The position numbers were made by a program, and so were the translations under genes. Positions 8,268 through 27,726 of a stretch of 44,604 nt of DNA are shown here, in pieces. The notes beneath the pieces were generated by a model. The model had not been told where the DNA came from. It did no database searches and worked only from the letters and a program-made list of their open reading frames with translations. The DNA is from a virus: the IMG/VR virus record IMGVR_UViG_3300027996_000062, positions 1 through 44,604 of that record; one strand, given 5' to 3'. Position 1 is the first letter of the stretch; every line of letters starts with the position of its first letter.

Positions 8268-8516
8268 CTATTTATTTATTTCATATTCCTCTTCCTCTTC
8301 GCTTATTTTTTTGTCATTATTCCAGTAAGATTTTTTCATGAGTTGACCATTAGAATAGTACAGCAAACGTTCTCCGTGTTTTTTGCCATTCTTCCAATAA
8401 GACTTTTCCATGAGTTGACCATCAGACCAATAGTATATGTATAGTCCTTTCCACTTTATTCCTGATAACCAAATACTATATCCTCTAGTCATCTTCAATA
8501 GATTAAAACAGTTCAT
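8268..8516 (-). CDS. MNCF-family MORN-repeat protein (82 aa)
   Basis: The product opens MNCFNLLKMTRGYSIWLSG, the N-terminal block shared by 15 proteins in this window. It has two full MORN-like repeats (SDGQLMEKSYWKNGKKHGER and SNGQLMKKSYWNNDK) and an acidic end (EEEEEYEINK). It overlaps the upstream membrane gene by four bases (ATGA). Related MORN_2-type repeats occur in bacterial YwqK-like proteins, often annotated as antitoxins without direct proof. There is no signal peptide, so it is probably cytoplasmic. Confidence 0.8.
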   Translation of the reverse strand: MNCFNLLKMTRGYSIWLSGIKWKGLYIYYWSDGQLMEKSYWKNGKKHGERLLYYSNGQLMKKSYWNNDKKISEEEEEYEINK

Positions 8517-8704
8517 TTCTTATCCTTTGGATCAGGTAGACCAATAATTCCACATATAATACCTACTACAGCAGCTCCAAAGCAGATAAGCTGCAATGGT
8601 TGTACTCCAATCATTCCCATAATAGTCATGTTAAGCAAGATAATAATAGCATTTGCTGTAATTAATATTTTAGGATTTGACAATTTTTTAATAATTTTAC
8701 TCAT
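8513..8704 (-). CDS. Small two-helix membrane protein (63 aa)
   Basis: I place the start at 8704, because AAGGAGAAGTATT precedes that ATG. The earlier in-frame ATG at 8734 lies about eight bases after the promoter -10 box and would be nearly leaderless. The product has two hydrophobic segments (ITANAIIILLNMTIMGMIG and LICFGAAVVGIICGIIGL) and a charged DPKDKK end. It is the first gene of the leftward early unit and overlaps the following MORN gene by four bases. It is an inner-membrane protein of unknown role. Confidence 0.7.
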   Translation of the reverse strand: MSKIIKKLSNPKILITANAIIILLNMTIMGMIGVQPLQLICFGAAVVGIICGIIGLPDPKDKK

Positions 8705-8742
8705 AATACTTCTCCTTATAACAATTTTACTCATCTAATATA

Positions 8743-8771
8743 AGTATACTATACAATTATATTAATGTCAA
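8743..8771 (-). promoter_or_regulatory. Consensus sigma70-type early promoter (leftward)
   Basis: On the minus strand TTGACA, a 17-base spacer and TATACT read into the three small genes ending at 8029. The -35 box lies 8 bases from a late-promoter variant on the other strand. Confidence 0.85.
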
Positions 8772-8778
8772 TAGAAAA

Positions 8779-8786
8779 AATAAATA
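8779..8786 (+). promoter_or_regulatory. Late promoter variant before the resolvase
   Basis: AATAAATA is 26 bases before the preferred resolvase start at 8813, within the spacing range of the other late promoters. One base differs from the standard octamer. Confidence 0.5.
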
Positions 8787-8812
8787 TTATTAAAGGAAGG
8801 GAGGAAGAAATA

Positions 8813-9457
8813 ATGGATTATGTAGTTTCAATTGATTGTTCAATAAATTCACCGGCAGTATGTGTATATGATATGGAGAATGATTTCTATCATTTATATT
8901 CATACACAGATAAGATACCAAAAAATTCAGTGATTAAATTTACAAAGGAAAACTGTTCTATCTTTATAGAGAGAAAAATAAAAGAAGAAGACTATACAGA
9001 TGATTTTACAAATACAACTAATAAAATACTAAAATTCATTGGTAGACATACAACAAAAGAGTTTGTTATAGTATTAGAAGGCTACTCATATGGATCAAAA
9101 GGAAGATCTATATTTGATATTGCTGAACTCGGAGGAATATTAAAGTATAGACTTAAAGAAACTTTTAAAAATGCACATCTATTCATTGTTACTCCAAGTG
9201 AATGGAAAAAAGAAGTAGTAAAACATGGTAATGCTGATAAAGAAAAGATTGCTAATTATTTAATTGAGAATGATAATACATGGAGTTCAGTTCTAGATCA
9301 TTTCTTGGAATTGGCCTTAGATGAAAAATTTGGAAAAAAGAGAGATCCAAGCAAGTTAAAAGATAAAATATATGAATCTCCTGTCAATGATGTAACGGAT
9401 GCCTATTGTATATGTCAATACTTCTTAAATAAGCGTGCTCAGACTGTCTCAGACTAA
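8813..9457 (+). CDS. RuvC-like Holliday junction resolvase (RNase H fold)
   Basis: I choose the start at 8813, after AAGGAAGGGAGG. The first in-frame ATG at 8765 lies inside the opposing promoter. The 214-residue product has the RuvC-type active-site order: Asp8 in VVSIDCSINSPAVCVYD, Glu89 in FVIVLEGYSYGSKGRS, and the late acidic pair Asp193/Asp196 in VNDVTDAYCICQYF. The helix FDIAELGGILKYRL and TPSEWKKEVVKHGNADKEKI between them are typical of RuvC-like phage nucleases. The likely role is cutting branched replication or recombination intermediates before packaging, the job of endonuclease VII in T4. A late-promoter variant upstream fits that timing. Confidence 0.8.
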   Translation: MDYVVSIDCSINSPAVCVYDMENDFYHLYSYTDKIPKNSVIKFTKENCSIFIERKIKEEDYTDDFTNTTNKILKFIGRHTTKEFVIVLEGYSYGSKGRSIFDIAELGGILKYRLKETFKNAHLFIVTPSEWKKEVVKHGNADKEKIANYLIENDNTWSSVLDHFLELALDEKFGKKRDPSKLKDKIYESPVNDVTDAYCICQYFLNKRAQTVSD

Positions 9458-9494
9458 CGAAACAATAAAACTGATAGCAGAGTATAGGTAAGGA

Positions 9495-9890
9495 CTATTC
9501 TACCCTATTTCCATCAATGTCGTATTGGATATAATCCTTTAATGATTCGTTATCATATGTACAAATTAAAGAAGGTTGACCATTATCATAATATTCTGAA
9601 TATTCAGTAATTCTCTCCCCATCATATGTACAAATTAAAGAAGGTTGACCATTATCATAATATTCTGAATATTCAGTAATTCTCTCCCCATCATCATAAT
9701 GACACCTTTCATATAGATCACCATTCTTAAACCATACCAAATATAATCCGTGTCTCTCCCCATCTTTCCAATAAGATTTTTCGCTTAGTTGACCATTATC
9801 ATGATATTGCAAATATAGTCCTTCATACTCTACTCCAGATACCCACATACTTTTTCCTCTAGTCCTTTTCAGTAGATTAGAACAATTCAT
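9495..9890 (-). CDS. MNCF-family MORN-repeat protein with duplicated repeat (131 aa)
   Basis: The N-terminal block is MNCSNLLKRTRGKSMWVSG, with Ser in place of Phe at position 4. About four to five MORN-like repeats follow (DNGQLSEKSYWKDGERHGLY and others). Two adjacent copies of the 23-residue unit DGERITEYSEYYDNGQPSL are identical in DNA. The C-terminus (LKDYIQYDIDGNRVE) resembles that of the next gene upstream (VKDYIQYDFDGN), so these two are close relatives. It is second in a leftward pair read from the promoter at 10232-10260. Confidence 0.8.
   Translation of the reverse strand: MNCSNLLKRTRGKSMWVSGVEYEGLYLQYHDNGQLSEKSYWKDGERHGLYLVWFKNGDLYERCHYDDGERITEYSEYYDNGQPSLICTYDGERITEYSEYYDNGQPSLICTYDNESLKDYIQYDIDGNRVE
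9552..9689 (-). repeat. Exact 69-base in-frame tandem duplication
   Basis: Bases 9552-9620 and 9621-9689 are identical with no spacer. Each copy is 69 bases, which equals one 23-codon MORN unit. Perfect identity means a very recent duplication or strong gene conversion. Confidence 0.95.
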
Positions 9891-9901
9891 GGTATTCCCT
9901 C

Positions 9902-10204
9902 TCAGTTATTGCGATTATATAGTTTTGCTATGCTGATGGGTAAGGATGATGCCACAACATTTCCGTCAAAGTCATATTGGATATAATCCTTAACTGAACC
10001 ATTAGTATATATGCTAATTATAGAAAGTTGTCCGTTGTCATGATATACCACACAATTTCCGTGTTTATTTCCATCCTCCCAATAACATTTTTCATATAAT
10101 TGGCCATCATTATAATAATATATTAAACCTAGTCCTTCGTATTCTACTCCAGACAACCAAATATAGTCTCCTCTAGTCTTATTCAATACATCAAAACAGT
10201 TCAT
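9902..10204 (-). CDS. MNCF-family MORN-repeat protein (100 aa)
   Basis: The product opens MNCFDVLNKTRGDYIWLSGVEYEGLGL, followed by two to three MORN-like repeats (NDGQLYEKCYWEDGNKHGNC, HDNGQLSIISIYTNGS). Its C-terminal tail has left the repeat pattern (VVASSLPISIAKLYNRNN). GGAGATACT precedes the ATG, and the gene is first after the leftward early promoter at 10232-10260. It is followed by a closely related paralogue 11 bases downstream. Confidence 0.8.
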   Translation of the reverse strand: MNCFDVLNKTRGDYIWLSGVEYEGLGLIYYYNDGQLYEKCYWEDGNKHGNCVVYHDNGQLSIISIYTNGSVKDYIQYDFDGNVVASSLPISIAKLYNRNN

Positions 10205-10231
10205 AGTATCTCCTCATATTAAACTAATACT

Positions 10232-10260
10232 ATCATACTTGATAATTTCTATAATGTCAA
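10232..10260 (-). promoter_or_regulatory. Sigma70-type early promoter (leftward)
   Basis: Minus strand TTGACA, 17 bases, TATGAT. It faces away from another sigma70 promoter at 10279-10307, with 18 bases between the two -35 boxes, so two MORN cassettes are fired divergently. Confidence 0.8.
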
Positions 10261-10278: not shown

Positions 10279-10307
10279 TTGACTTTATTAAAAATATGCT
10301 ATATACT
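10279..10307 (+). promoter_or_regulatory. Sigma70-type early promoter (rightward)
   Basis: TTGACT, a 17-base spacer and TATACT read toward the MORN gene at 10341. This is one of only two sigma70 promoters seen on the plus strand. Confidence 0.8.
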
Positions 10308-10340: not shown

Positions 10341-10571
10341 ATGAATTGTTTTGAACTACTGAAAAGGACTTTACGAGAGGGTAATGGAATAATGTTATCT
10401 AGTCTTTATTTTTATTATCATCCTAATGGTCAACTATGGGAAAAATCTTATTGGGAGGATGGCAATAAACATGGTAAATATTTATTATGGTCTAAAAATG
10501 GTCAACTATGGGAGAGGTCTTACTATAGGAATGGAAGAATATATGGGAAACGTTTAATATATAAACATTGA
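10341..10571 (+). CDS. MNCF-family MORN-repeat protein (76 aa)
   Basis: The start at 10341 (MNCFELLKRTLREGNG) matches the family N-terminus and follows GGAG. An upstream in-frame ATG would add a non-family extension. Two MORN-like repeats follow (HPNGQLWEKSYWEDGNKHGK and KNGQLWERSYYRNGRIYGK), and the protein stops soon after. It is read rightward from its own sigma70 promoter and is followed by a small HTH-like gene. Confidence 0.78.
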   Translation: MNCFELLKRTLREGNGIMLSSLYFYYHPNGQLWEKSYWEDGNKHGKYLLWSKNGQLWERSYYRNGRIYGKRLIYKH

Positions 10572-11616: not shown

Positions 11617-11955
11617 ATGAATTGTTTTGAATTATTAGAAAGAAAATATATTTTCTTAACCGATGGAGAAAAGGAAGCAACAGGAATCTGTATCGAATGG
11701 TTTCCTAATAATCAGATTAGATATAAAACATATCTAAACAATAATAAAAAGCATGGAACCACTTCAGTATTTAATAAGTGTGGAAGACTAATCGCCTGCT
11801 CTGAGTGGAAGAATGGAAGACGACACGGTAAATGTAATAGATGGTGGGGAAATGGTAATAAAAGAGAACATGGAGAATATATAAAAGGAAAAGCAGTAGG
11901 CGAACACATATTTTATTTCGAAGACGGATCTATCTGGACAAAAGAAGTTCATTAA
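11617..11955 (+). CDS. Diverged MNCF-family MORN-like protein (112 aa)
   Basis: The start at 11617 (MNCFELLERKYIFL) follows GGAGG. An upstream ATG at 11596 overlaps the previous stop but lacks the family start. The repeats are degenerate: FPNNQIRYKTYLNNNKKHGTTSV, KCGRLIACSEWKNGRRHGKC, and a final HGEYIKGKAVGEHIFYFEDGS. It has no promoter of its own and directly follows the tube-fold gene on the same strand, so it may be transcribed late, unlike most family members. Confidence 0.72.
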   Translation: MNCFELLERKYIFLTDGEKEATGICIEWFPNNQIRYKTYLNNNKKHGTTSVFNKCGRLIACSEWKNGRRHGKCNRWWGNGNKREHGEYIKGKAVGEHIFYFEDGSIWTKEVH

Positions 11956-11972: not shown

Positions 11973-12001
11973 TTGACATTTAATTAAAAATATAGTATAC
12001 T
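11973..12001 (+). promoter_or_regulatory. Consensus sigma70-type early promoter (rightward)
   Basis: TTGACA, a 17-base spacer and TATACT lie 31 bases before the GTG start of the MORN gene at 12033. Confidence 0.85.
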
Positions 12002-12032: not shown

Positions 12033-12443
12033 GTGAACTGTTTTAATGTGTTAGACAAGACCAGGAATTCAAGTATCACTATTAATTTAAGTAATAAAAC
12101 TTGTGCTTGTATTGGATGGTGGGATAATAGATCACTGAAATACAAAACTTACTATAAGAATGAAAATAAATGGCCTATGTTCAATTGTGAGTTACACGGA
12201 ACATATTCCGTTTGGTATAGTGATGGTCAACTAAAAGAAAAGTCTTACTACATGAATGGTGGATTACATGGAGAAAGATTGGTATATTATTATACAGGTC
12301 AACTCATGGAAAAATCTCATTGGAAGAATGGAAATCTACACGGAAAGTATTTGTGGTATCATGATAATGGTCAACTATGGAAAAAGTCTTATTGGAATAA
12401 TGGCGAAGAAATCACTGAAGAGGAGTATAATGAATTGTTTTGA
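12033..12443 (+). CDS. MNCF-family MORN-repeat protein with GTG start (136 aa)
   Basis: The start is GTG at 12033 after AGAGGAAT; it gives the family N-terminus MNCFNVLDKTRNS. Three clear MORN repeats follow (SDGQLKEKSYYMNGGLHGER, TGQLMEKSHWKNGNLHGK, DNGQLWKKSYWNNGEE). The C-terminus is ITEEEYNELF. The DNA of that C-terminus contains GAGGAG and the ATG of the next family member, which starts 14 bases before this gene ends. A preceding sigma70 promoter makes it an early gene. Confidence 0.82.
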   Translation: MNCFNVLDKTRNSSITINLSNKTCACIGWWDNRSLKYKTYYKNENKWPMFNCELHGTYSVWYSDGQLKEKSYYMNGGLHGERLVYYYTGQLMEKSHWKNGNLHGKYLWYHDNGQLWKKSYWNNGEEITEEEYNELF

Positions 12444-12621
12444 TACATTAAAAAAGACCAAAGGAGACTATATTTGGTTGTCGTTATCAGATGGAAGATC
12501 TCTTTGTATGTACTGGTACCATATTAACGATCAAATAACGGAAAAGACATACTTTTATCGTAATAACATAGTAAGTCAAACTGCGTGGGACTGTAACGGA
12601 GTTGTGACACATAAATTATAA
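12430..12621 (+). CDS. MNCF-family protein, short, no full MORN repeat (63 aa)
   Basis: The start at 12430 lies inside the last codons of the preceding paralogue, with the GAGGAG of that gene as ribosome binding site. The family N-terminus is intact (MNCFDTLKKTKGDYIWLSLSDGRSLCMYWY). Only one weak repeat-like unit (NDQITEKTYFYRNN) follows before the end. It may be a truncated relative or an N-domain-only protein. Its stop codon lies within the late promoter of the next gene. Confidence 0.75.
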   Translation: MNCFDTLKKTKGDYIWLSLSDGRSLCMYWYHINDQITEKTYFYRNNIVSQTAWDCNGVVTHKL

Positions 12622-13442: not shown

Positions 13443-13615
13443 TGGCCAGCACCTATGGGGCCATCTCCGATTACTATGAGTGTTTACATGTATTCACTTA
13501 TCACATGGGTTGGACAGTAAGTGAAGTAGAGAAACTTCTTCCATACGAAGTTGAAATCTTTTTACTGAACTTTGCTAAACAGAAAAAAGAAGAAGATGAC
13601 AAAAATAATAAATAA
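13442..13615 (+). CDS. Small overlapping tail assembly gene (57 aa)
   Basis: The ATG overlaps the stop codon of the gp26-like gene (CCTAATGG), so it is translationally coupled. The product MASTYGAISDYYECLHVFTYHMGWTV... continues with SEVEKLLPYEVEIFLLNF and a charged tail (AKQKKEEDDKNNK). The pattern of a larger protein with an overlapping small partner just before the tape measure resembles tail assembly chaperone pairs, where the second frame supplies the tape-measure-binding part. It could be a split C-terminal portion of a hub assembly protein. I see no evidence of programmed frameshifting. Confidence 0.7.
   Translation: MASTYGAISDYYECLHVFTYHMGWTVSEVEKLLPYEVEIFLLNFAKQKKEEDDKNNK
13607..13614 (+). 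promoter_or_regulatory. Late promoter variant
   Basis: AATAAATA lies 30 bases before the start at 13645, the typical spacing, and overlaps the stop of the small gene before it. Confidence 0.5.
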
Positions 13616-13644
13616 TTGTATATTAAAAACATAAAGAGATAGTT

Positions 13645-14001: not shown

Positions 14002-16173
14002 ATGGCAAACTCAGAAAAAAAGATGATAGAGGACTTTACCAAGTTCTTATCAAATTTATCAAAACAGTCTACTAGTCAAACAAGTACACAAAAAGAAATA
14101 CTAGCTTTAACAAATAAACAGTTAAATGCCTTGAAGAGTCTACTTGATAAGCCTGCTGGAGATACTTTTGGTATAGGTGATATGAGTTCAAGTGTATTCA
14201 AGTCCAAGAAAGATGAGATAGAATATGAAAAGAAAATGATTGCTCTTGAAGAAGAACGAGCAGAACTATCAGAAGATTCCTTAGAGAAGGAATTAGACAT
14301 GTTAGAAGATAAAATAAAAGGTGTTGATAAATTACAGAAAGAAGAAGATAAATTACAAGAGAAAAAAGCAAGGAACGCAAGACTAGTCAAAGAAACTAAA
14401 AATTTTGTGTCTGATACTATGGGACTTGTTGCTGATGTAGTTGGCGTATCAAATCCATTAACCGTATTTGGAAATATTTTCTCAGGACTCAAAAGTCAAT
14501 TCGGTGGCATACTTGGAGCTGTTGGCGGCATAGGATCAGGTCTAGGTCTAAAGAAAAAAGAAGCAGATGAATTAGTTAAAGAACAGTCACTTGGTCTTCA
14601 GACAGAAACAAACGAACTACTCAATCAATTAGTCGATAATACAACTGAGAAAAAAGATATGCTTAAAGGCGGATCTATGTTAGACTTTTTAAAGAAGTTT
14701 ATTCCTAGTGGACTTGCTGGTATGTTTTCTCCTAAGGGAACTTTCGGTAAGATGGGTGGTACTCTATTAAAGGGTGCTGGTGCTGCTATGATTCTTGGTG
14801 GTGTATGGATGGTTGTTGATGATTTCATTGAGGGATTCAATAAAGGCGGTATATCTGGCGGTCTATCAAAAGCACTACTTGGAGAAACTACTGGTAAGAT
14901 GGAAGACTCATTCAAGAATGCTGGGAAGTTTGCTCTTATAGGAGCCGGTATCGGTGCTTTCTTTGGTCCTATTGGTGTACTTGCTGGCGGTCTTATCGGC
15001 GGAGCTATTGGTCTACTTGCTAACTACATAGGTAGTCTTATAAAATCAACTGATAAATCAACTGGTGAAAAGATTGGTGATGCATTGTTCGGTGGATCTT
15101 CCGGTATTAAATCAGCATTATTTCATGGAGCTAAGTTTGCTGGTATAGGTGTCGGAATCGGGTTTGTTGCTGGTGGTCCTATTGGTGCTATTGTCGGTGG
15201 TCTTATCGGATTCGTTGTAGGGTTTGTTATTAACTTCGTTAAACAGATTCTTCCAGATGATTTAAAAACAAGTATGAGTGCTTTCTTTATAAAGACTGGT
15301 AGATGGATTAAAAATGCTGGTATTAGAATGTGGGAAGGATTCAAGAACGTATTATCATTTATGTGGGAAGGATTCAAAAATAATTTATCTAGTATATGGA
15401 GCGGAATAGAATCTATAGGGCACATTTTTAAAAGATTAGGCAATAAAATATGGGAAGGAGTGTTGTGGATTTCAGATAAATTAGGAATATCTGGTTACCT
15501 AGAAAGAATTAAAAACGGATTCATAATGATGAAGGACAAGACTCTAAGTTTCGTTGAATCTATCTTTACTGAGATATCTAATTTATGGGACTCATTTAAA
15601 AATGTTATGGATGGCTACTGGAATAGAATTAAAGGATTCTTTGACTTTGGTGGAGATGACAAAAAACCAACAGAGAAAAGAAAAGCATTTAAGAAGATGT
15701 CTTTTGGTGGTATAGGTTCTGGATCAATATCAGCTAATAAAATACCTGAAGCAAATTCAGTTACAGAATTAAAAGAAGAAAAGAATTCAACTAAGATAAT
15801 TGAAAAGCAAGACGTAATGAAAGATGTACTAGGAAATGCTAAAACACATATAAAAAATATAGAAGAATTTCTTATTAATGATATGATTGATAATATTAGA
15901 AAGATGTTCAGTGAAAATATTAATCATTTAATAACACAAATGAAAATAATGCAATTTGAAGACAGACAATGGAGGACATTTTTAGATACTGGAACATTGA
16001 GTACTTTTGGTAGTTCATATAAATCATTTGCACGAGAAGTAGGTGACATGGGAGCTAATAGAAGAGAAAGAGAAGAAATAGGAAGCGCTATTAATTCAGT
16101 AAATAATGTAAACAATTCTGTATTTCAAAATGTTCAAACAACAGAAACATATAATTCACTAAGGAAGGGATAA
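14002..16173 (+). CDS. Probable tape measure protein (T4 gp29-like role)
   Basis: The 723-residue product has a polar N-terminal coiled coil (residues about 60-135, EEERAELSEDSLEKELDMLEDKI in sense). The centre is glycine-rich and hydrophobic, with long small-residue helices (GGIGSGLG, GAGIGAFFGPIGVLAGGLIGGAIG, FVAGGPIGAIVGGLIGFVVGFVI) at about residues 165-420. Tryptophan-containing helical repeats follow (MWEGFKN, IWSGIES, NKIWEGV), then a polar C-terminus. This matches tape measure proteins, which set tail length and help inject DNA. T4 gp29 is 590 residues, so a somewhat longer tail is possible. The adjacent hub-assembly genes support the call. Confidence 0.75.
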   Translation: MANSEKKMIEDFTKFLSNLSKQSTSQTSTQKEILALTNKQLNALKSLLDKPAGDTFGIGDMSSSVFKSKKDEIEYEKKMIALEEERAELSEDSLEKELDMLEDKIKGVDKLQKEEDKLQEKKARNARLVKETKNFVSDTMGLVADVVGVSNPLTVFGNIFSGLKSQFGGILGAVGGIGSGLGLKKKEADELVKEQSLGLQTETNELLNQLVDNTTEKKDMLKGGSMLDFLKKFIPSGLAGMFSPKGTFGKMGGTLLKGAGAAMILGGVWMVVDDFIEGFNKGGISGGLSKALLGETTGKMEDSFKNAGKFALIGAGIGAFFGPIGVLAGGLIGGAIGLLANYIGSLIKSTDKSTGEKIGDALFGGSSGIKSALFHGAKFAGIGVGIGFVAGGPIGAIVGGLIGFVVGFVINFVKQILPDDLKTSMSAFFIKTGRWIKNAGIRMWEGFKNVLSFMWEGFKNNLSSIWSGIESIGHIFKRLGNKIWEGVLWISDKLGISGYLERIKNGFIMMKDKTLSFVESIFTEISNLWDSFKNVMDGYWNRIKGFFDFGGDDKKPTEKRKAFKKMSFGGIGSGSISANKIPEANSVTELKEEKNSTKIIEKQDVMKDVLGNAKTHIKNIEEFLINDMIDNIRKMFSENINHLITQMKIMQFEDRQWRTFLDTGTLSTFGSSYKSFAREVGDMGANRREREEIGSAINSVNNVNNSVFQNVQTTETYNSLRKG

Positions 16174-16183
16174 TACTCTTCCT

Positions 16184-16462
16184 CTAATCCTTTAATAAAA
16201 AATTTAATTCGTCGCTTACACCATTAACGTATCTGGATTTCTCCCATAACTCTCCATTATTCGAGTAAGTTGTAAACTTTCCGTGTCTAACTTCACCCTT
16301 ATAATAACCCTTTTTGAAAAGAATTCCGTTTTCCCACCACTCCAAATATAATTCTATTCCATCTGATAAGGGAATGAATAACCTACTTCTGTTTTCATAT
16401 TCTTCCTCAGTCAACCACATACTTTTTCCTTTGGTCTTATTCAGTATATCAAAACAATTCAT
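16184..16462 (-). CDS. MNCF-family MORN-repeat protein (92 aa)
   Basis: The start at 16462 gives MNCFDILNKTKGKSMWLTEEEYENR; an upstream ATG would add a five-residue extension (MIIEV) before the conserved start. About two MORN-like repeats follow (ENGILFKKGYYKGEVRHGKF, NNGELWEKSRYVNG). It is a single-gene leftward cassette read from the promoter at 16490-16518. It ends ten bases from the tape measure stop, so it converges on a late gene. Confidence 0.78.
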   Translation of the reverse strand: MNCFDILNKTKGKSMWLTEEEYENRSRLFIPLSDGIELYLEWWENGILFKKGYYKGEVRHGKFTTYSNNGELWEKSRYVNGVSDELNFLLKD

Positions 16463-16566: not shown

Positions 16567-18090
16567 ATGGAACAGTACTTTTTTGACAGTCAACGCAAGA
16601 CTATAGTAGCATTCTCTAAGCTTTTTACCGATGTAATTGTGAGGAGAGAGAATTCAACTAATATAGATGTTCCAATAATATATGCAAATAAACAAAAATT
16701 CTATCAAAGAATAAATGATAATAGATCTTCCCAAGGAATAACTCTACCAGCTATTTCATTATTTAACACTGATATTGAATATAATCTGGAAAGACAAAAA
16801 AGTAATCTGGCCAAGTCTATACTTAAGATTTCCAAGAATGACTCTGATATACTTTATCATATTCCAAATCCAAGTCCCGTCACAATGCTATTCGAAGTAT
16901 TAATCAAATCTAAATACTATTTTGATCATAGATACATTACTGAGACTATTATTCCTAGATTTCAACCAACACAACATCTACTACTTAATCTTATTCCTGA
17001 AATGAATGTACAATGTTCTGTTCCAGTCACTCTTACAAGCATACAAAATGATTTCCAAACAGAGTTGGATGAGGATCCGAATTCAGTAAGATCATTTGAA
17101 ACTACTCTCACGTTCGAAGTCGAATCTTTTATATTTCCTCCTCTTACTGAAAAATCTATTATAAAAACTATTAAGTCTTATGGTAACGATGTTTTATTGA
17201 CTGTTGAGAACGAGTATTCCCACGATGAGCTGATAAACAGTAAATTACATACTATAACAGACAATGCGACTAATCTAGCAGCAGAGATCAATATAGCCGC
17301 TACAACAGCAGATAGATACAATCATTTCGTCATACAAGACTTTACAACTGAAATAGGAACTTATGGAGACAAATTCAAAATAACAAATGAAGAAAATGAA
17401 GAATTCGAGTATCTATTTGAATATGATAACGGAGAATTATATTCAGCCGATCAATTTGTTCCTGATACACTTACATTAAATAAGACTAATAATATTTTTA
17501 TTCATATCCCTTTCATTAAAGAAAATAAATCAATGAAACTATTTGTTAAGACTTATCATGGAGATTCTTATATAAAAGCTGAAGAAATTGTTCCTATATA
17601 CAATTCTTTTAATACTAGAACACTCAGAGACCTTTATATACAGGAAAAAAAGTCAGACTCTATAGTTTACATTGATAATTCTGTTTTATTCGTTAGAGAC
17701 AGTTCTGGTTCGTCTATTGATGATATACTACGTGTTTCCTCAGTGAATGCTTTAAGTGGATCAAAAACTATTAGTATAGGACTATCAACTTTCACTTGGG
17801 AAGCTGAAAAATTCATATGTGGAGTGTCTGATGAAAATGAATCTGAACTCTATATAAAAACAACTACTACACAAGACGAGTACGAAGTGTTTGTTGATGC
17901 TACTTCAAAAGGAACATTAACAAAAGCTAGTATAAGTTTAATTAGATTTGACTATGATGGAACTGATTGGGACGTATATGTCAATGATCAGACATTAAGT
18001 TTTACTGAAAGTGATTTCATATCACCTTTTATCTGTTGGAATGGTACTAGTATTGCTCAGTTTGATTATATTAAAGGTTATACTGTCTAA
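16567..18090 (+). CDS. Tail completion/sheath stabiliser protein (T4 gp15-like) with extra C-terminal domains
   Basis: Residues 1-200 match the T4 gp15 pattern. The visible elements are YFFDSQRKTIVAFSKLF, then VPIIYANKQKFY, a TLPAISLFNTDIEYNLER segment, NPSPVTMLFEV, YITETIIPRFQP, and TLTFEVESFIFPP. gp15 caps the tail tube and sheath and joins the tail to the head. T4 gp15 is 272 residues, whereas this protein has 507. The additional 300 residues are beta-rich and end in a lectin-like jelly-roll sequence (WEAEKFICGV, YIKTTTTQDEYEVFVDATSKG, RFDYDGTDWDVYVNDQ). That part is unusual for this family. The last four bases overlap a convergent MORN gene. Confidence 0.78.
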   Translation: MEQYFFDSQRKTIVAFSKLFTDVIVRRENSTNIDVPIIYANKQKFYQRINDNRSSQGITLPAISLFNTDIEYNLERQKSNLAKSILKISKNDSDILYHIPNPSPVTMLFEVLIKSKYYFDHRYITETIIPRFQPTQHLLLNLIPEMNVQCSVPVTLTSIQNDFQTELDEDPNSVRSFETTLTFEVESFIFPPLTEKSIIKTIKSYGNDVLLTVENEYSHDELINSKLHTITDNATNLAAEINIAATTADRYNHFVIQDFTTEIGTYGDKFKITNEENEEFEYLFEYDNGELYSADQFVPDTLTLNKTNNIFIHIPFIKENKSMKLFVKTYHGDSYIKAEEIVPIYNSFNTRTLRDLYIQEKKSDSIVYIDNSVLFVRDSSGSSIDDILRVSSVNALSGSKTISIGLSTFTWEAEKFICGVSDENESELYIKTTTTQDEYEVFVDATSKGTLTKASISLIRFDYDGTDWDVYVNDQTLSFTESDFISPFICWNGTSIAQFDYIKGYTV

Positions 18091-18560
18091 GCATCTATTA
18101 TAGGAAGACTTTTCCTATATTCTTCCTCGGTAATTTTTTCACCATCCTTCCAATAAGATTTTTCATGTAGTTGACCGTTAGAATAATACATCAGACGTTC
18201 TCCGTGCATATTCCCATTCTTCCAATAAGATTTTTCACTGAGTTGGCCGTTAGAATAATACCACAGAGATTCTCCATGTCTTTTGCCATTCTTCCAATAA
18301 GACTTTTCCCGAAGTTGACCATTAGAAAAATACCTCAGACGTTCTCCATGTATTTCACCATTCTTCCAATAAGATTTTTCATGTAGTTGACCGTTAGAAT
18401 AATACATCAGACGTTCTCCGTGCATATTCCCATTCTTCCAATAAGATTTTTCGTGTAGTTGACCATTATCGTGATATTCTAGATGTAGACCTACGTATAG
18501 TATTCCCGATACCCATAAATCATCGTCTATAGTCTTATTCAGTAAATCAAAACAATTCAT
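18087..18560 (-). CDS. MNCF-family MORN-repeat protein with five near-identical repeats (157 aa)
   Basis: The product opens MNCFDLLNKTIDDDLWVSGI and has five 24-residue MORN-like repeats of the form (D/S)NGQL.EKSYWKNG..HGERL.YY, ending ITEEEYRKSLPIIDA. It is the most regular member of the family. A 90-base segment is present twice with no differences, three repeat units apart. The gene is a one-gene leftward cassette with its own promoter and overlaps the gp15-like gene tail-to-tail by four bases. Confidence 0.85.
   Translation of the reverse strand: MNCFDLLNKTIDDDLWVSGILYVGLHLEYHDNGQLHEKSYWKNGNMHGERLMYYSNGQLHEKSYWKNGEIHGERLRYFSNGQLREKSYWKNGKRHGESLWYYSNGQLSEKSYWKNGNMHGERLMYYSNGQLHEKSYWKDGEKITEEEYRKSLPIIDA
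18147..18452 (-). repeat. Internal 72-base period repeats with a 90-base identical pair
   Basis: Bases 18147-18236 and 18363-18452 are identical over 90 bases. The offset is 216 bases, three 72-base (24-codon) MORN units. The intervening units are similar but not identical, so this reflects segmental duplication or gene conversion inside the array. Confidence 0.95.
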
Positions 18561-19611: not shown

Positions 19612-19743
19612 TCATCTGTTATACTTTTCCCTAAATACTTCCATCATCTCTTCATAGCAAGTCATGCAAAGTGCTCTACCATATTTGTCGATAGAAATAC
19701 CATCTTCCTCGCCACAGCTTTTACAATGATCACAAACTAACAT
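19612..19743 (-). CDS. Tiny zinc-ribbon protein (43 aa)
   Basis: The product MLVCDHCKSCGEEDGISIDKYG... continues RALCMTCYEEMMEVFREKYNR. It has two CxxC pairs (C7/C10 and C26/C29), typical of a small zinc ribbon. The ATG lies within the last codons of the upstream MORN gene (AATGTTAGTTTGTGA), so it is coupled. It is the last of nine genes read leftward from the promoter at 22042-22069. A nucleic acid- or protein-binding adaptor is plausible; nothing is more specific. Confidence 0.65.
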   Translation of the reverse strand: MLVCDHCKSCGEEDGISIDKYGRALCMTCYEEMMEVFREKYNR

Positions 19744-20170
19744 TATAAATCTTCTCCTTCTTTAACCATTCAAGCATGCTGATATTTAGTTCTTTTAGAA
19801 GCTCTTGCGTTTCTTCTGTAATTATTTTCTTCATTTCTTCGACGGAATCAATACTTTGGTATTGCTTGTATTGTTCCAAATCTTCTTTTGTGAAAACTTT
19901 TTTTAATCTATCATCAGACATTTTTCCCTCCTTTAGTATCTTATACTCTTCTTCGGTTATCTTCTTTCCATCTTTCCAATAATATTTGTCCACAAGCTTA
20001 CCATCATAATAGTATCTTGTACACTTCCCAACTCTCTCACCATCTTTCCAGTAAGACTTTTCGCATAATTGTTTGTTAGGATAATAATCTAAATAAAGAC
20101 TAATGGAATTAAATAAAGGTATAGAAAATATTTTACCTACAGTCTTATCTAGCAGATTTAAACAATTCAT
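19730..20170 (-). CDS. MNC-family MORN-repeat protein with helical C-terminal extension (146 aa)
   Basis: The product opens MNCLNLLDKTVGKIFSIPLFN, the family block with Leu at position 4. Two MORN-like repeats follow (PNKQLCEKSYWKDGERVGKC, YDGKLVDKYYWKDGKK) and then ITEEEYKILKEGK. After this the protein continues for about 65 residues as a charged helical tail (VFTKEDLEQYKQYQSIDSVEEM, then ITEETQELLKELNISMLEWL), not seen in other members. It starts inside the last codons of the upstream paralogue and overlaps the tiny zinc-ribbon gene downstream. Confidence 0.78.
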   Translation of the reverse strand: MNCLNLLDKTVGKIFSIPLFNSISLYLDYYPNKQLCEKSYWKDGERVGKCTRYYYDGKLVDKYYWKDGKKITEEEYKILKEGKMSDDRLKKVFTKEDLEQYKQYQSIDSVEEMKKIITEETQELLKELNISMLEWLKKEKIYNVSL

Positions 20171-20603
20171 TATATTCTTCCTCAGTGATTTCTAATCCAT
20201 CATTGAAAAACGATACACATAATGATCCATCGTAATTCCGCCATATACATTTTCCATGATTCTGACCATCTTTCCAATAAGATTTTTCCTTTAACTGACC
20301 ATCAGAATTATATATTATACGATCTCCATGTTTCTTTCCATTCTTCCAATAAGATTTTTCCCATAGTTGACCATTATAATAATATTCTAAATATTCTCCG
20401 TGTCTTTTGCCGTTCTTCCAATAAGATTTTTCCTTTAACTGACCATTATCATAATACCACAAACGTTCACCATGATTCTGACCATCTTTCCGATAAGATT
20501 TTTCCCATAGTTGACCGTTATCACAGTACCGGTGTATGATAATAGATCTACCGTCTGATAACGGTATGCAAAGAGATTTTACTAATACATCAAAACAGTT
20601 CAT
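20145..20603 (-). CDS. MNCF-family MORN-repeat protein (152 aa)
   Basis: The product opens MNCFDVLVKSLCIPLSDGRS and has five MORN-like repeats (DNGQLWEKSYRKDGQNHGER, DNGQLKEKSYWKNGKRHGEY, YNGQLWEKSYWKNGKKHGDR and others). The end is ITEEEYNELFKSAR. The start overlaps the stop of the preceding gene (TAATG), and the DNA for EEEYNELF contains the start of the next MNC gene, a 26-base overlap. It is part of the nine-gene leftward operon. Confidence 0.82.
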   Translation of the reverse strand: MNCFDVLVKSLCIPLSDGRSIIIHRYCDNGQLWEKSYRKDGQNHGERLWYYDNGQLKEKSYWKNGKRHGEYLEYYYNGQLWEKSYWKNGKKHGDRIIYNSDGQLKEKSYWKDGQNHGKCIWRNYDGSLCVSFFNDGLEITEEEYNELFKSAR

Positions 20604-20848: not shown

Positions 20849-20866
20849 TGCTTGCCTCCTTTTAAA

Positions 20867-21079
20867 TCAAACTCCATTCCACCACACATCAACAACAAAA
20901 CCACATACACTACAAACTTCATAGTGTATTGTAATATTTGTGCACCCATTTTCATATTCAACAATTAAATCTTTAAATCTTCCTGATTCAATTTCACTGC
21001 AATCACATGATAGAAGAATATCGCAATCCTCACAGTAATCTGTATGAGCATCACTATAACCGCATTTACATTTATACAT
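20867..21079 (-). CDS. Small cysteine-rich zinc-binding protein (70 aa)
   Basis: GGGAGGTGAAGG precedes the ATG. The product has four cysteine knuckles: CKCG, CEDCD, SCDCSE and CSVCGF, ending in VVDVWWNGV. Two zinc sites are likely. The gene lies in the leftward early operon with two other tiny zinc-ribbon genes. Its role is unknown. Confidence 0.7.
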   Translation of the reverse strand: MYKCKCGYSDAHTDYCEDCDILLSCDCSEIESGRFKDLIVEYENGCTNITIHYEVCSVCGFVVDVWWNGV

Positions 21080-21147
21080 CCTTCACCTCCCTTGCATCTA
21101 TTGCTAAACCTTCCCCAATCCTGCGGCGTTAATTTATCTTTCACTAT

Positions 21148-21334: not shown

Positions 21335-21586
21335 CTAGTCATATTTTACTAATTGTTTATACTCTTCCAATGTTACGAATATTCCCTCATTCCAATACGA
21401 TACGCCGATGAAAGATCCTTTTCTTGTCCACATTAAACATCTTCCATGAGCCTTTCCATTAAATCGTTCCACTATATCCTCTATCTGGCCATTGCTATGC
21501 CAGTGATAAAGAATATCACTATTTTCTGACTTAGGAATAACCAATCCATCTCCTTTAGTCTTATCTAATAGATTAAAACAATTCAT
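21335..21586 (-). CDS. Diverged MNCF-family MORN-like protein (83 aa)
   Basis: The family N-terminus is intact (MNCFNLLDKTKGDGLVI), but the repeats are weak: SNGQIEDIVERFNGKAHGRC, then a RKGSFIGVSYWNEG unit. The C-terminus VTLEEYKQLVKYD keeps the EEY motif. Its ATG overlaps the stop of the upstream gene (TAATG). It is a degenerating or specialised paralogue within the nine-gene operon. Confidence 0.75.
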   Translation of the reverse strand: MNCFNLLDKTKGDGLVIPKSENSDILYHWHSNGQIEDIVERFNGKAHGRCLMWTRKGSFIGVSYWNEGIFVTLEEYKQLVKYD

Positions 21587-24248: not shown

Positions 24249-24539
24249 TTATTTAATATCTTTTAGTTCAATTGTTGCAGAACTAGCAAGGCCCATAGCA
24301 CTTTTAGGCATTTGAAATTGTAAAATTTCAATATTATATTCTTCAAAAACTTCTAAAACATAAAGAAATTCTTCATCGTTAAATCTAAGAAATTCTATTA
24401 TTTTAGGATTTTTTTCGCATATATCAAAACCTTTTGTACATTCTAGATAACCTCTTCTTCTTATTTTTTTATATTGTGTTTTTTCAATACCAAGATATTC
24501 TAAAACATTTTTCCAATTATATTTTTTTATGTTATTCAT
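24249..24539 (-). CDS. Small protein with HTH-like N-terminus (96 aa)
   Basis: The start at 24539 follows GAGGGGG. The product opens MNNIKKYNWKNVLEYLGIEKTQYKKIRRRGYLE, which resembles a helix-turn-helix with a basic recognition segment. A short C-terminal domain follows (FLYVLEVFEEYNIEILQF). It is the first gene of a leftward early operon, where a regulator would fit. DNA binding is only a suggestion. Confidence 0.58.
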   Translation of the reverse strand: MNNIKKYNWKNVLEYLGIEKTQYKKIRRRGYLECTKGFDICEKNPKIIEFLRFNDEEFLYVLEVFEEYNIEILQFQMPKSAMGLASSATIELKDIK

Positions 24540-24579
24540 TATGAACCCCCTCAAGTATTAATCAATCAACTCTAATATA

Positions 24580-25510: not shown

Positions 25511-25806
25511 TATTTGTCAAACGTTTTATATAGTTCTCTAGCAGTCTTAGGAATATAAACTTTTCCATCTATAATGATTTTCATTTCTTTCTTTCCGAAA
25601 TCAGTTTCCCAAATCCACCACTTAATTGTTTCTTCTTCTGATTTGTACTTTTCTAAAAAACTATCTACAGCACTATTAATCAATTCACATATAAGTATGC
25701 CTAACTTAGAATCTATTCCAGTATAATCAAAAGCGTCATCTGTTCGTCTATACAATCTCTCAAGCATTAGCATGTCTTTACAAAATTTATATCTATCTAT
25801 TTTCAT
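25510..25806 (-). CDS. Protein of unknown function (98 aa)
   Basis: The start at 25806 (MKIDRYKFCKDMLML) lies inside the last codons of the upstream MORN gene, with GGGAGGAA in front. The product is helical first (LERLYRRTDDAF, ELINSAVDSFLEKY), then reads IKWWIWETDFGKKEMKIIIDGKVYIPK. It probably has an alpha/beta fold and is soluble. No family is recognised. Confidence 0.62.
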   Translation of the reverse strand: MKIDRYKFCKDMLMLERLYRRTDDAFDYTGIDSKLGILICELINSAVDSFLEKYKSEEETIKWWIWETDFGKKEMKIIIDGKVYIPKTARELYKTFDK

Positions 25807-26107
25807 TATATTCCTCCCCAGTAATTTTTTCACCATCTTTCCAATAAGACTTCTCATGAAGTTGACCATTAGAATAATAGTCTAAATATTCTCCATGTAT
25901 ATACCCATCCTTCCAGTAAGACTTTTCATTGAGTTGACCATCAGACCAATGCCGCAAACATTCTCCATGTCTTTCATAATCCTTCCAGTAAGACTTTTCC
26001 CAGAGCTGACCATTTTCATAATAGTCTAAATACAATCCTTCATATTCTATTCCAGACAGCCACAATTCGTCTCCTCTAGTCTTCTTCAGTATATCAAAAC
26101 AGTTCAT
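25793..26107 (-). CDS. MNCF-family MORN-repeat protein (104 aa)
   Basis: The start at 26107 follows GGAGGATGTC. The product opens MNCFDILKKTRGDELWLSGIEYEGLYL and has three MORN repeats (ENGQLWEKSYWKDYERHGEC, SDGQLNEKSYWKDGYIHGEY, SNGQLHEKSYWKDGEK). It ends ITGEEYNENR. The next gene starts 14 bases before this one ends, inside the codons for EEYNENR. It heads a three-gene leftward early operon. Confidence 0.83.
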   Translation of the reverse strand: MNCFDILKKTRGDELWLSGIEYEGLYLDYYENGQLWEKSYWKDYERHGECLRHWSDGQLNEKSYWKDGYIHGEYLDYYSNGQLHEKSYWKDGEKITGEEYNENR

Positions 26108-26144
26108 GACATCCTCCAAAATAAAAAAATCAACTCATAATTTA

Positions 26145-26173
26145 ATAATACACTATCATTTCGAATAAGTCAA
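26145..26173 (-). promoter_or_regulatory. Sigma70-type early promoter (leftward)
   Basis: Minus strand TTGACT, 17 bases, TATTAT. The -35 box lies eight bases from the late promoter at 26181-26188. Confidence 0.8.
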
Positions 26174-26180
26174 GAGTTTT

Positions 26181-26188
26181 TATAAATA
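26181..26188 (+). promoter_or_regulatory. T4-type late promoter
   Basis: TATAAATA lies 22 bases before the gp53-like gene at 26211, the shortest spacing among the window's late promoters. Confidence 0.8.
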
Positions 26189-26210
26189 ATATTAAAAATG
26201 GAGAACATAT

Positions 26211-26645
26211 ATGAAATATTTTGAAGATATCTTAAAAAAATACACGGATGCGGACAATAATGAGATACCAAATCTATCCAGAACAGTCAATATAGACAGT
26301 GTAATCAATTCTGAATATTTAATTGATTACTATATTAAAGATGGAGATACTCCTGAACTACTCGCATTGAATCTATACAATGATAAGGACATGTGGTGGG
26401 TTATTCCAGTTGTAAATAAGATGCTAGATATATACAATGAATGGCCTCTTACATCAAGAGTATTAAAGTCATGGTACACCAAATTAGTAGCAGATGGAGA
26501 GATAACAGGAACAGCTGCTCAAAAGGCTGTTATATTTGCTACACTGAAAACAGAGAACAATGCTAAGAGAAAGGTTAGTGTGATAGATCCAAAATTTATT
26601 GGAGACTTTCAAAAAGATCTACAAACAGTTATCAATAATATATGA
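26211..26645 (+). CDS. Baseplate wedge protein (T4 gp53-like)
   Basis: The 144-residue product carries the gp53 core. The visible elements are YLIDYYIKDGDTPELLALNLYNDKDMWWVIPVVNKM, which follows the T4 pattern YYIKG..PEELA...Y.....YWV (shown here only as an alignment by eye), then DIYNEWPLT, and a C-terminal IDPKFIGDFQKDLQTV that parallels the end of T4 gp53. The core resembles a LysM-like fold. gp53 joins neighbouring wedges and stabilises the baseplate. T4 gp53 is 196 residues. A late promoter precedes it, and a small GTG-started gene follows. Confidence 0.78.
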   Translation: MKYFEDILKKYTDADNNEIPNLSRTVNIDSVINSEYLIDYYIKDGDTPELLALNLYNDKDMWWVIPVVNKMLDIYNEWPLTSRVLKSWYTKLVADGEITGTAAQKAVIFATLKTENNAKRKVSVIDPKFIGDFQKDLQTVINNI

Positions 26646-26655
26646 GGTATTGGTT

Positions 26656-26826
26656 GTGCCATCAATCATAATAAAGTCGCTTTCAAAGAAATTAGATGTA
26701 CCAGTTAAAGACTTAGAGAAAGTATGGAAAGAAGCAAAAGAGATTTCTAGTAAGTTAGGAAGATCTTTTGATATAGATTATGTAATAGGTATTTTTCAGA
26801 AATTGTGTAGAGTTAAATATAAGTAG
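26656..26826 (+). CDS. Small basic helical protein (56 aa), GTG start
   Basis: I place the start at the GTG at 26656, nine bases after ATGAGG and eleven after the gp53-like stop. The product is MPSIIIKSLSKKLDVPVKDLEKVWKEAKEI in outline, ending DIDYVIGIFQKLCRVKYK. It looks like a small HTH-like or helical-bundle protein common near phage structural genes. It shares the late transcript of the gp53-like gene and ends one base from a convergent gene. Confidence 0.65.
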   Translation: MPSIIIKSLSKKLDVPVKDLEKVWKEAKEISSKLGRSFDIDYVIGIFQKLCRVKYK

Positions 26827-26827
26827 T

Positions 26828-27217
26828 CTATTCAGTATGATTAGCAAGAATCATGAATGCCTGTACCATAGAAAGACAATCTATTACAAAACTATCTGCC
26901 TTTGCTTGTGTAATTAATTTATCAATTTTCTTAGCTTCACTTAGCCAATGATCGTAAACAGGCAATTCATATTCTTTTAATGCTATTTCTCGTATATAGT
27001 TATTACTTCCTTTTTTAATATACATAAAAATTGCATAAAACTTATTAATTTCATCAAGAGTATTTTCAAACTCTCCTGTTCCTATAATCTTGATACCATG
27101 TGCTTCAGTAATTATCTCAAAAGCTTTTTTGTTTATCATTTCTACTTTTTCTCCATTAGCAGTAATCCAAAAATTATCTTTCATAGGATAAGCCCATCCT
27201 TCTGAAATTTTACTCAT
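26828..27217 (-). CDS. Protein of unknown function (129 aa), last in the MoxR/VWA operon
   Basis: AAGGAGGATTAA, which includes the upstream stop codon, precedes the ATG. The product is soluble and helical in its second half (IREIALKEYELPVYDHWLSEAKKIDKLI). It reads FWITANGEKVEMINKKAFEIITEAHGIKI near the start. It follows two MORN genes in the operon that begins with the MoxR ATPase. No motif points to a function. Confidence 0.62.
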   Translation of the reverse strand: MSKISEGWAYPMKDNFWITANGEKVEMINKKAFEIITEAHGIKIIGTGEFENTLDEINKFYAIFMYIKKGSNNYIREIALKEYELPVYDHWLSEAKKIDKLITQAKADSFVIDCLSMVQAFMILANHTE

Positions 27218-27529
27218 TTAATCCTCCTTAAATCTATCGTCTCTATCTATCATTATTCCATCTTCCCAATAAGATTTTTCTTCAATACTACCATCATAAT
27301 ACCAACATTCTACCACACCATGTAGCTTGCCATTCTTATAACAATTAATTTCACATAACTGTCCGCTTGGATACCATGATTTACGTATTCCATATCTACG
27401 TTTATCCTTCATATAGAATTTATATCCTAATTGACCATTTTTATGATATTGCAAATGTAGTTTAATATCTTTGTTTATTAAATGAATTGTGCTGCCTCTA
27501 GTATTTTCTAATAGATCAAAACAATTCAT
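27218..27529 (-). CDS. MNCF-family MORN-like protein (103 aa) in the MoxR/VWA operon
   Basis: The product opens MNCFDLLENTRGSTIHLINKD and has three diverged repeats (KNGQLGYKFYMKDKRRYGIR, PSGQLCEINCYKNGKLHGVV, YDGSIEEKSYWEDG). Its ATG overlaps the stop of the preceding MORN gene (TAATG). The end lacks the EEEY motif (MIDRDDRFKED). The operon position makes it a translationally coupled partner of the VWA protein's operon. Confidence 0.78.
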   Translation of the reverse strand: MNCFDLLENTRGSTIHLINKDIKLHLQYHKNGQLGYKFYMKDKRRYGIRKSWYPSGQLCEINCYKNGKLHGVVECWYYDGSIEEKSYWEDGIMIDRDDRFKED

Positions 27530-27726
27530 TAGAACTCCTCATTGATATATAAATGTCCGTTTGAATACCATCTCTTATGATTTCCATTTAGGATATTATC
27601 TTTATAATAAGATTTATCTAATAGTTGACCATTAAAATACCACTCTAAATGTAATCCTTCGCCTTCTACTCCTGTTAGCCATATATCAGCACTTACAGTA
27701 TTATCTAATAGATCAAAGCAGTTCAT
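27529..27726 (-). CDS. Short MNCF-family MORN protein (65 aa) coupled to the VWA gene
   Basis: The product opens MNCFDLLDNTVSADIWLTGVEGEGLHLEWY, followed by one and a half MORN repeats (FNGQLLDKSYYKDNILNGNH, SNGHLYINEEF). Both ends show TAATG coupling: its start overlaps the VWA gene stop and its stop overlaps the start of the next MORN gene. It is probably a shortened paralogue. Confidence 0.78.
   Translation of the reverse strand: MNCFDLLDNTVSADIWLTGVEGEGLHLEWYFNGQLLDKSYYKDNILNGNHKRWYSNGHLYINEEF

Follow-up and report, generated by a model that had tools for sequence, protein, structure and literature searches.

What fifteen related small repeat proteins are doing in the tail region of a phage is the question raised by IMGVR_UViG_3300027996_000062, a 44,604-nt piece of a T4-like myovirus genome (the whole stretch is referred to here as the window). 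The window covers the tail region only, with genes for the sheath (5496), tubes (7454, 10817 and 19085), baseplate (12657), tape measure (14002) and stabiliser (16567). The majority of the fifteen MNCF/MORN genes are interspersed among these tail genes, and 11 of them are encoded on the opposite strand from the structural genes. Host assignment was attempted with the ATPase and tail-fibre protein; the top matches were distant phages of many hosts, and no host was assigned.

The MNCF/MORN family and its putative promoters

The initial annotation had described fifteen MNCF/MORN open reading frames on both strands, and each was found in place (the evidence is given in brackets):

8268 to 8516, minus strand: MNCF/MORN_2, 82 aa, second in its operon behind 8513-8734 (translated search, head)
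9495 to 9890, minus strand: MNCF/MORN_2, 131 aa, one gene with 9902 in a sister contig (Pfam scan, translated search)
9902 to 10204, minus strand: MNCF/MORN_2, 100 aa (translated search, head)
10341 to 10571, plus strand: MNCF/MORN_2, 76 aa counted from the MNCF start (translated search, head)
11617 to 11955, plus strand: MNCF/MORN, 112 aa, MORN_2 slightly below cut-off (29.3 bits)
12033 to 12443, plus strand: MNCF/MORN_2, GTG start, 136 aa, 3' end GAGGAGTATAATG overlapping the start of 12430
12430 to 12621, plus strand: MNCF gene with degenerate repeats, 63 aa, without a Pfam match
16184 to 16462, minus strand: MNCF/MORN_2, 92 aa (Pfam scan, translated search)
18087 to 18560, minus strand: MNCF/MORN_2 with five repeats, 157 aa (Pfam scan, translated search, model)
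19730 to 20170, minus strand: MNCF/MORN_2, last ~63 aa probably a separate open reading frame joined by a 1-base indel
20145 to 20603, minus strand: MNCF/MORN_2, 152 aa, overlapping 19730 by 26 bases
21335 to 21586, minus strand: MNCF/MORN, 83 aa, third in operon 21784-21586-21335
25793 to 26107, minus strand: MNCF/MORN_2, 104 aa, tail encoding GAGGAATATAATG, from which the unrelated downstream gene takes its ribosome-binding site and start
27218 to 27529, minus strand: MNCF/MORN_2, 103 aa, start coupled to the 27529 stop (TAATG)
27529 to 27726, minus strand: MNCF/MORN, 65 aa, start coupled to the stop of the 27726-28892 gene (TAATG)

The fifteen genes do form one coherent family, as proposed, in which a conserved head precedes a repeat body that varies. 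A translated search with 18087 as query recovered all 15 members (E 3e-108 to 1e-4), and in all-against-all blastp each protein matched 12 to 14 of the other 14. The N-terminal block is alignable; M1, N2, C3 and L7 are invariant across the 15 proteins, the consensus in most members is MNC(F/S/L)(D/N/E)xLx(K/R/N)T, and pairwise identity averages 61% over residues 1-12 versus 17% over residues 13-24. The shared head is thus real, but its description as MNC(F/L) was too narrow, since residue 4 can also be S (9495), L being found in 19730. Kinship with MORN_2/YwqK proteins was confirmed by Pfam profile matches: among the 10 members scanned, MORN_2 (PF07661; curated cut-off 29.6 bits) was above the cut-off in six, sub-threshold in three and absent from 12430. 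Exact tandem-repeat motif matches numbered 6, versus 0 in 100 shuffles. Most members therefore carry MORN_2 repeats as claimed, but not every one, as 12430 has the head with barely any recognisable repeat.

Two other readings of the head were considered and rejected. Codon identity among identical residues was 0.65 in the head versus 0.55 elsewhere; this is no sharp excess of the kind a DNA or RNA signal would leave, and constraint at the protein level suffices. Pattern scans of IMG/VR and of an 84,980-species genome collection for MNCF as a widespread tag matched the sister contig alone.

Several MNCF/MORN genes are preceded by sigma-70-like promoter-like sites of their own. Strict promoter-like sites, called as consensus matches, numbered 29 versus 11.6 expected, and a promoter motif with shared flanks precedes six of the genes and the operons containing 8268 and 21335:

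8771 to 8743: putative promoter of the operon with 8268, TTGACA-17-TATACT
10260 to 10232: putative promoter of 9902
10279 to 10307: putative promoter of 10341
11973 to 12001: putative promoter of 12033, TTGACA-17-TATACT
16518 to 16490: putative promoter of 16184
18618 to 18590: putative promoter of 18087, TTGACT-17-TATAAT
22069 to 22042: putative promoter of the operon with 21335, TTGACT-16-TATAAT
26173 to 26145: putative promoter of 25793

With such promoters, host polymerase would presumably read the MORN genes apart from the structural operons. Tandem copies are joined through overlapping ribosome-binding-site/start sequences, and part of a conserved tail, ITEEEYN, also supplies the downstream gene with its ribosome-binding site and start codon.

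This manner of joining would also suit an expansion free of selection, in which the family is a recombination by-product of repeat-rich small genes and does little or nothing. The star-shaped, unresolved tree of the 15 proteins, which gives no order of duplications, and the degenerate repeats of several members (12430, 21335) point the same way; however, the head and reading frames are retained in 15 copies, comparable families occur in many phage contigs, and the scaffold is strongly constrained, with variation in unrelated arrays falling at the same few positions (see below). An expansion of this sort is considered quite unlikely.

Predicted fold and localised change in a sister contig

An AlphaFold2 model of 18087 (pLDDT 93) predicts a helix at residues 3-9, beta-hairpins forming the repeat sheet expected of MORN_2, and a helix at residues 145-151. 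Foldseek matched the model to MORN1, a radial-spoke MORN protein and SET7/9 in the PDB. The initial annotation had read the conserved head as a block for a common binding partner; conservation of the head stands, but in the model it is a short helix opening the repeat sheet, and so the MNCF head may act structurally, as a cap, instead of as a tag for binding a partner. By inspection, no signal sequence was seen in the phage MORN proteins.

A sister contig is 99.4-99.9% identical to the window, and all four in-gene indels or rearrangements between the two fall within MNCF genes, in repeats, where short-read assembly can go wrong. These genes make up ~19% of the coding sequence, and the chance of four out of four events there is about 0.001. 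The events are a 6-base in-frame indel (a deletion in 8268 of the sister contig), a paralogue fusion (9495 and 9902 being one gene there), a repeat mosaic and a 1-base frameshift. The mosaic lies in 18087, where one repeat of the sister contig is altered at repeat positions 14, 23 and 24 and reads as a copy of another of the gene's own repeats; the frameshift lies in 19730, where the sister contig carries one more T, at 19921, and encodes a protein ending in KILKEGKNV. The two contigs do not differ in the tape measure, the baseplate, the sheath or the tail tubes. A site-specific recombinase was not noticed in the window; only a RuvC-like gene, at 8765, was seen.

These comparisons bear on whether the proteins are accessories of the virion or its assembly, with the head as a packaging or docking tag and the proteins carried in the virion, injected like the T4 internal proteins, or trimming tail assembly. 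Most MNCF genes do sit among tail genes, and a tag would look like a short conserved head on a variable body; however, the head is predicted to lie within the folded repeat unit, the genes lie largely on the opposite strand with, in several cases, promoter-like sites of their own, and most other phage contigs have a tandem block with a different head. Furthermore, MORN number and content shift between near-identical contigs whose tail-structural genes are unchanged. Altogether, a virion role appears unlikely, and the accessory, non-structural character of the family is supported.

Site-wise variation in the window and in other phage arrays

The MNCF expansion had been judged unusual. The MNCF head was indeed found only in the window and one sister contig, but the expansion is not confined to one phage, as other large phage contigs hold MORN_2 families of a similar kind. 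MORN_2 genes were found in 11 further IMG/VR contigs, 9 of which carry several paralogues, and the largest arrays hold 45 genes (115-kb contig) and 24 genes (77-kb contig). A T4-type portal and terminase are present in three of these contigs. Most of the other arrays are tandem blocks of ATGA-overlapping genes with a common head of their own, unlike MNCF. The cultured-phage records searched yielded no more than a prophage with long repeat genes and one solitary gene, and literature searches for MORN with phage or jumbo phage returned no paper describing such arrays. In marine long reads, MORN repeats were 37 times enriched relative to assemblies (PMC9238414), which suggests that short-read assemblies under-report MORN genes.

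In the 45-gene array (G003; 128 repeats), the scaffold of the 24-residue repeat is nearly invariant, silent sites included. Nonsynonymous/synonymous ratios by repeat position were 4.4 at position 6, 3.8 at 9, 4.4 at 14 and 3.3 at 24, and at most 0.5 at most scaffold positions. In 63 independent repeat pairs, positions 6/9/14 gave pN 0.341 versus pS 0.085 (ratio 4.0, Fisher p 5e-29), although these positions were chosen from the same data that were then tested, and the low silent divergence is partly recent homogenisation. A neutral simulation at the base composition of this array gave a ratio of about 0.85, and with positions chosen from the window alone (6, 14, 23, 24) the G003 ratio was 2.9 (95% bootstrap interval 2.3-4.0). 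Diversifying selection in the 45-gene array is therefore well supported.

The positions variable in G003 also vary most in the window, where per-position variability correlates with that of five other repeat sets (rho 0.58-0.81). The ratio at 6/9/14 in the window is only 1.0, because silent sites are near saturation (pS 0.50), and relaxed constraint fits as well as positive selection; diversifying selection is only suggested for the window family. The ratio over the rest of the repeat is 0.42 in the window and 0.66 in G003. Samples from three further arrays (G005, G008 and G011) were small and individually not significant.

A diversity-generating retroelement might instead write the variable positions: at positions 9 and 24 of the G003 repeats, changes fall chiefly in codon bases 1-2 with the third constant (NNT, NNA), a pattern resembling templated mutagenesis. 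However, adenines elsewhere in the repeat are nearly invariant (Y7 TAT, N10 AAT, K16 AAA, N18 AAC), the copies are dispersed across many genes, and no reverse transcriptase (RVT_1) was found in nine contigs, most of them fragments. This origin is disfavoured as highly improbable.

Relatives and a proposed function

The nearest bacterial relatives (Ilyobacter, Cetobacterium, Fusobacterium and Porphyromonas levii) are about 37-49% identical. Bacterial MORN_2/YwqK 'antitoxins' (PF07661) share the 22-24-residue repeat; the phage family differs in its many paralogues per phage and in the MNCF head, which a scan of the genome collection did not turn up. In Fusobacterium, MORN2 genes have undergone a similarly lineage-specific expansion, with 1 to 27 repeats (PMC12940168), but most of those proteins carry signal sequences and are encoded next to autotransporters, whereas the phage proteins show no signal sequence by inspection and belong to phage genomes. 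By structure, the closest viral fold matches are giant viruses of protists. Giant viruses (Marseilleviridae, Orpheovirus, Hyperionvirus) likewise hold many MORN paralogues per large DNA virus (PMC8208085); however, their hosts are eukaryotic, and the phage families instead have phage-specific heads and mostly overlapping tandem genes.

The antitoxin annotation of the bacterial relatives raises the possibility of poly-immunity, in which orphan immunity proteins (YwqK-type/rAID-like) shield the infected cell from toxins injected by neighbours, with no anti-defence role. The rAID orphan-immunity arrays of gut Bacteroidales offer a parallel, being multi-copy and divergent with nonsynonymous changes gathered at the toxin interface (PMC12247911), much as change in the phage family is focused on a binding face proposed here, but they are bacterial, recombinase-associated and of another protein family than MORN_2. 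A tie to phage infection is provided by Cj0424, a YwqK relative encoded in cj0423-cj0425, the host locus most up-regulated during infection by a T4-like phage (PMC6024767). On the other side, the YwqK antitoxin name comes without a solved MORN_2 mechanism in the literature examined, and a search on MORN repeats with toxin and immunity protein found no paper. Unlike YwqJ-YwqK pairs, the phage genes adjoin no recognised toxin gene: among neighbouring small open reading frames, 10 scanned in Pfam and 6 of these also in PHROGs, no toxin family was found, although unlisted toxins would escape. The neighbours scanned likewise revealed no binding partner or target. By our own reasoning, long-term protection of the host would also be of little use to a lytic phage. 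Poly-immunity, a narrower version of the explanation favoured here, is regarded as rather unlikely. Searches of nine proteins (MORN genes or neighbours) against PADLOC-DB gave no defence-model match.

The explanation favoured, tentatively, is that the 15 genes are a repertoire of small binding modules, most likely neutralising varied host-side proteins. All 15 would share one scaffold, in which the MNCF head forms an N-terminal capping helix, followed by one to five MORN_2 beta-hairpins of 24 residues each and often closed by a helix at the C-terminus; the proteins are apparently cytosolic. Most variation lies at repeat positions 6 and 14, predicted cross-strand neighbours on one face, and at 9 and 23/24 in predicted turns; these positions are proposed as the target-binding surface, and binding proteins with variable targets, as first suggested, best fit the site-by-site variation. 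Recombination, both among repeats and between adjacent paralogues, would supply new variants. Many different binders would be deployed in parallel against fast-changing host-side proteins. Candidate targets are defence effectors or antibacterial toxins reaching the infected cell, and the role suggested in the initial annotation, as decoys or as inhibitors of host defence or toxins, stays an inference, no toxin or defence gene having been recognised among the neighbouring genes scanned.

Lamprey VLRs and TAL effectors are built of near-identical repeats with hypervariable residues at fixed positions, and the MORN arrays share this arrangement with a different fold. More broadly, and more tentatively still, large phages (T4-like where typed) may repeatedly have evolved modular MORN_2 recognition repertoires: dozens of genes with an invariant scaffold and fixed hypervariable residues, reshuffled by recombination and selected for diversity, giving each phage many ready-made binders against host-side proteins or polymers. 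If so, such a repertoire would be a phage equivalent of variable repeat receptors. MORN_2 proteins are common, and a phage lineage with 15 to 45 copies gives a handle on what the repeats bind, as the variable positions point to the probable target site and the paralogues are natural variants. If defence proteins or toxins are neutralised, these families would offer a large and as yet unexploited supply of inhibitors and point to an arms race hidden in uncultivated phages.

Anatomy and phage setting of the MNCF family

Each of the 15 MNC-headed, MORN-repeat paralogues that the initial annotation placed at 8268-27726 of the window proved to be a real open frame at its coordinates (genes are named here by start coordinate). 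They form one family, as a single member used as query matched 15/15, and MORN_2 (PF07661) was found in most members. The N-terminal head, claimed to be conserved, was alignable, with a mean identity of 61% over residues 1-12 and only 17% over the next 12. Structure prediction of head and repeats, run on a 157-residue member (pLDDT 93), gave a head helix (residues 3-9) leading into beta-hairpins with a 24-residue period, and a helix at 145-151; the same fold is found among solved structures in MORN1, radial-spoke proteins and SET7/9. Because the model places the head helix before the repeat hairpins, the head probably caps the repeat sheet, and it may also bind a partner.

The window, a 44,604-base IMG/VR virus record, encodes T4-like proteins, and its tail and baseplate genes are interspersed with the 15 MNCF genes; a role in the virion or its assembly is one rival explanation of the family.

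T4-like genes of the window
5496-7382, tail sheath
7454, 10817 and 19085, tail tubes
12657, baseplate
14002, tape measure
16567, sheath stabiliser
22355, endolysin
26211, wedge subunit

The orientation of 11/15 MNCF genes is opposite to that of the structural genes. Scanned with strict criteria, the window yielded 29 sigma-70-like sites (11.6 expected; highest of 60 shuffles, 21), including a subgroup with common flanks, AACTCTTGACT ... TATAcT .. TATTAGAttGA. Promoters of this subgroup lie upstream of 9902, 10341, 12033, 16184, 18087 and 25793, upstream of the operons containing 8268 and 21335, and upstream of one non-MNCF gene (24249-24554). From these sequences we infer that the MNCF genes may be transcribed by host polymerase, apart from the structural operons.

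Elsewhere, the window carries a T4 Rnl2-type RNA ligase and a phage-encoded NAD-dependent DNA ligase that includes a BRCT domain (38327-39334 and 41646-43610), a tandem pair of paralogues in which DGRYVYF(I/V)PY units of ~50 residues recur (110-2667), probably tail-fibre or adhesin-like, and a DUF7487 protein (PF24308; 4246-5469) with many EFKEK(S)IETCQNRYGV-like repeats.

MORN_2 families in other phages

The MORN_2 family itself is known, as are MORN expansions in giant viruses (PMC8208085) and Fusobacterium (PMC12940168); the families in giant viruses of protists are similar to those in phages (PMC8208085; structural matches). An exact translated repeat motif retrieved the sister contig (IMGVR_UViG_3300028045_000081) and two further IMG/VR contigs, and a second motif retrieved nine more.

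MORN_2 ORFs per IMG/VR contig, counted in the stretches read
G003, 115.7 kb, 45
G005, 77.7 kb, 24
G001, 148.7 kb, 14
G011, 21.8 kb, 9
G008, 39.6 kb, 8
G009, 362 kb, 7
G012, 155 kb, 6
G004, 37.9 kb, 3
G006, 92.5 kb, 2

G006 is probably a relative of G003, since its two genes are those at one end of the G003 block; G007 and G010 held only 1 and 2 repeats. T4-type portal and terminase genes were found in G001, G009 and G012, and the phage family phrog_1745 in G003 and G008 (E < 1e-146); the searches made found no hallmark genes in the remaining contigs, whose viral status is the IMG/VR call. The G001 portal gene (254-3232 of its stretch L040) is a single long frame in which ~1.3 kb, beginning CLSLDTRIPLLDG, splits the portal match; this stretch resembles an intein carrying a homing endonuclease. 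The cultured-phage records searched yielded just two cases, a Helicobacter equorum prophage whose repeat genes are long and one gene in a Vibrio jumbo phage. The prophage (BK070118.1, L012) spreads 34 MORN_2 repeats over a few long genes, one labelled 'GTP-binding protein EngA', probably a misannotation.

Most arrays have their own heads (MNSKDITPRNEKGExHGYWE, MNQYNDKGxRHGYWE, MKKNQYKDGKRHGYWE, MNKNIEPRNDKGERHG), and many consecutive array genes overlap by ATGA. Within the window, GAGGAGTATAATG or close variants encode the tail ITEEEYN of 12033, 20145 and 25793 and double as ribosome-binding site and start codon of the following gene, which is another MNCF gene after 12033 and 20145 and an unrelated gene after 25793; 27529 and 27218 also overlap, stop to start. 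These junctions suggest descent from tandem arrays like those of other phages. What appears to be new is that large phages have MORN_2 families of this size whose hypervariable positions are fixed; no such families were described in the literature searched, whose coverage mostly excluded subscription journals.

Position of repeat variation

Expansion without function is another rival account. Repeats were aligned in the register H1 G2 .. L13 .. K/R24. The 128 repeats of G003 are near-invariant, silent positions included (L13 TTA, 126-128/128 per base; H1 CAT, 126), and hypervariable at positions 6, 9, 14 and 24. A comparison of 63 independent repeat pairs gave a nonsynonymous-to-silent ratio of 4.0 at 6/9/14 (p 5e-29) and of 0.66 in the rest of the repeat, against ~0.85 in a neutral simulation. 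Because 6/9/14 had been picked on G003's own data, the test was repeated at window-chosen positions (6, 14, 23, 24), giving 2.9 (interval 2.3-4.0). In the window, the ratio at 6/9/14 was 1.0 with silent sites saturated, so the evidence for selection at these positions comes from G003 and not from the window. The window's variability profile correlates with those of five other repeat sets (rho 0.58-0.81), part of which is expected from the scaffold because all share the MORN_2 fold. A G003 member was modelled (pLDDT 95) with the same strands, at positions 2-7 and 13-20; since residues alternate along predicted strands, positions 6 and 14 would lie on the same face.

Differences from the sister contig and proposed function

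The sister contig shares 23.9 kb with the window at 99.4-99.9% identity, and the genes for sheath, tail tubes, baseplate and tape measure are identical in the two. Substitutions are found in the stabiliser and fibre-like genes, the second 110-2667 paralogue being among the most divergent genes. In the sister, 8268 has a 6-base in-frame deletion, 9902 and 9495 are one fused gene, one repeat of 18087 takes another same-gene repeat's version at positions 14, 23 and 24, and 19730 is frameshifted, an additional base at 19921 shortening its protein. All in-gene indels and rearrangements (4/4) thus fall within MNCF genes, ~19% of coding sequence (random placement probability ~0.001), with possible misassembly of repeats as a caveat. 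Retroelement mutagenesis is disfavoured as the source of variation. The last ~63 residues of 19730-20170 (MSDDRLKKVFTKEDLEQYKQY...) resemble a separate small ORF that a 1-base indel has fused with the MNCF gene. Furthermore, the sister carries a 533-base insertion (15796-16360; L009, L010) that contains a TTGACA promoter of its own as well as a lysine-rich ~160-aa ORF and is bounded by a 16-base direct repeat, whose single copy at window 13601-13616 marks the empty site; in addition, an unrelated ORF replaces the window's 70-aa cysteine-rich ORF (20862-21107).

Immunity against interbacterial toxins is a further rival. The leading explanation, tentative as a whole chain, is that the MNCF/MORN_2 repertoire would supply binding modules neutralising varied host-side proteins; confidence in diversified binding modules is higher than in any particular target.
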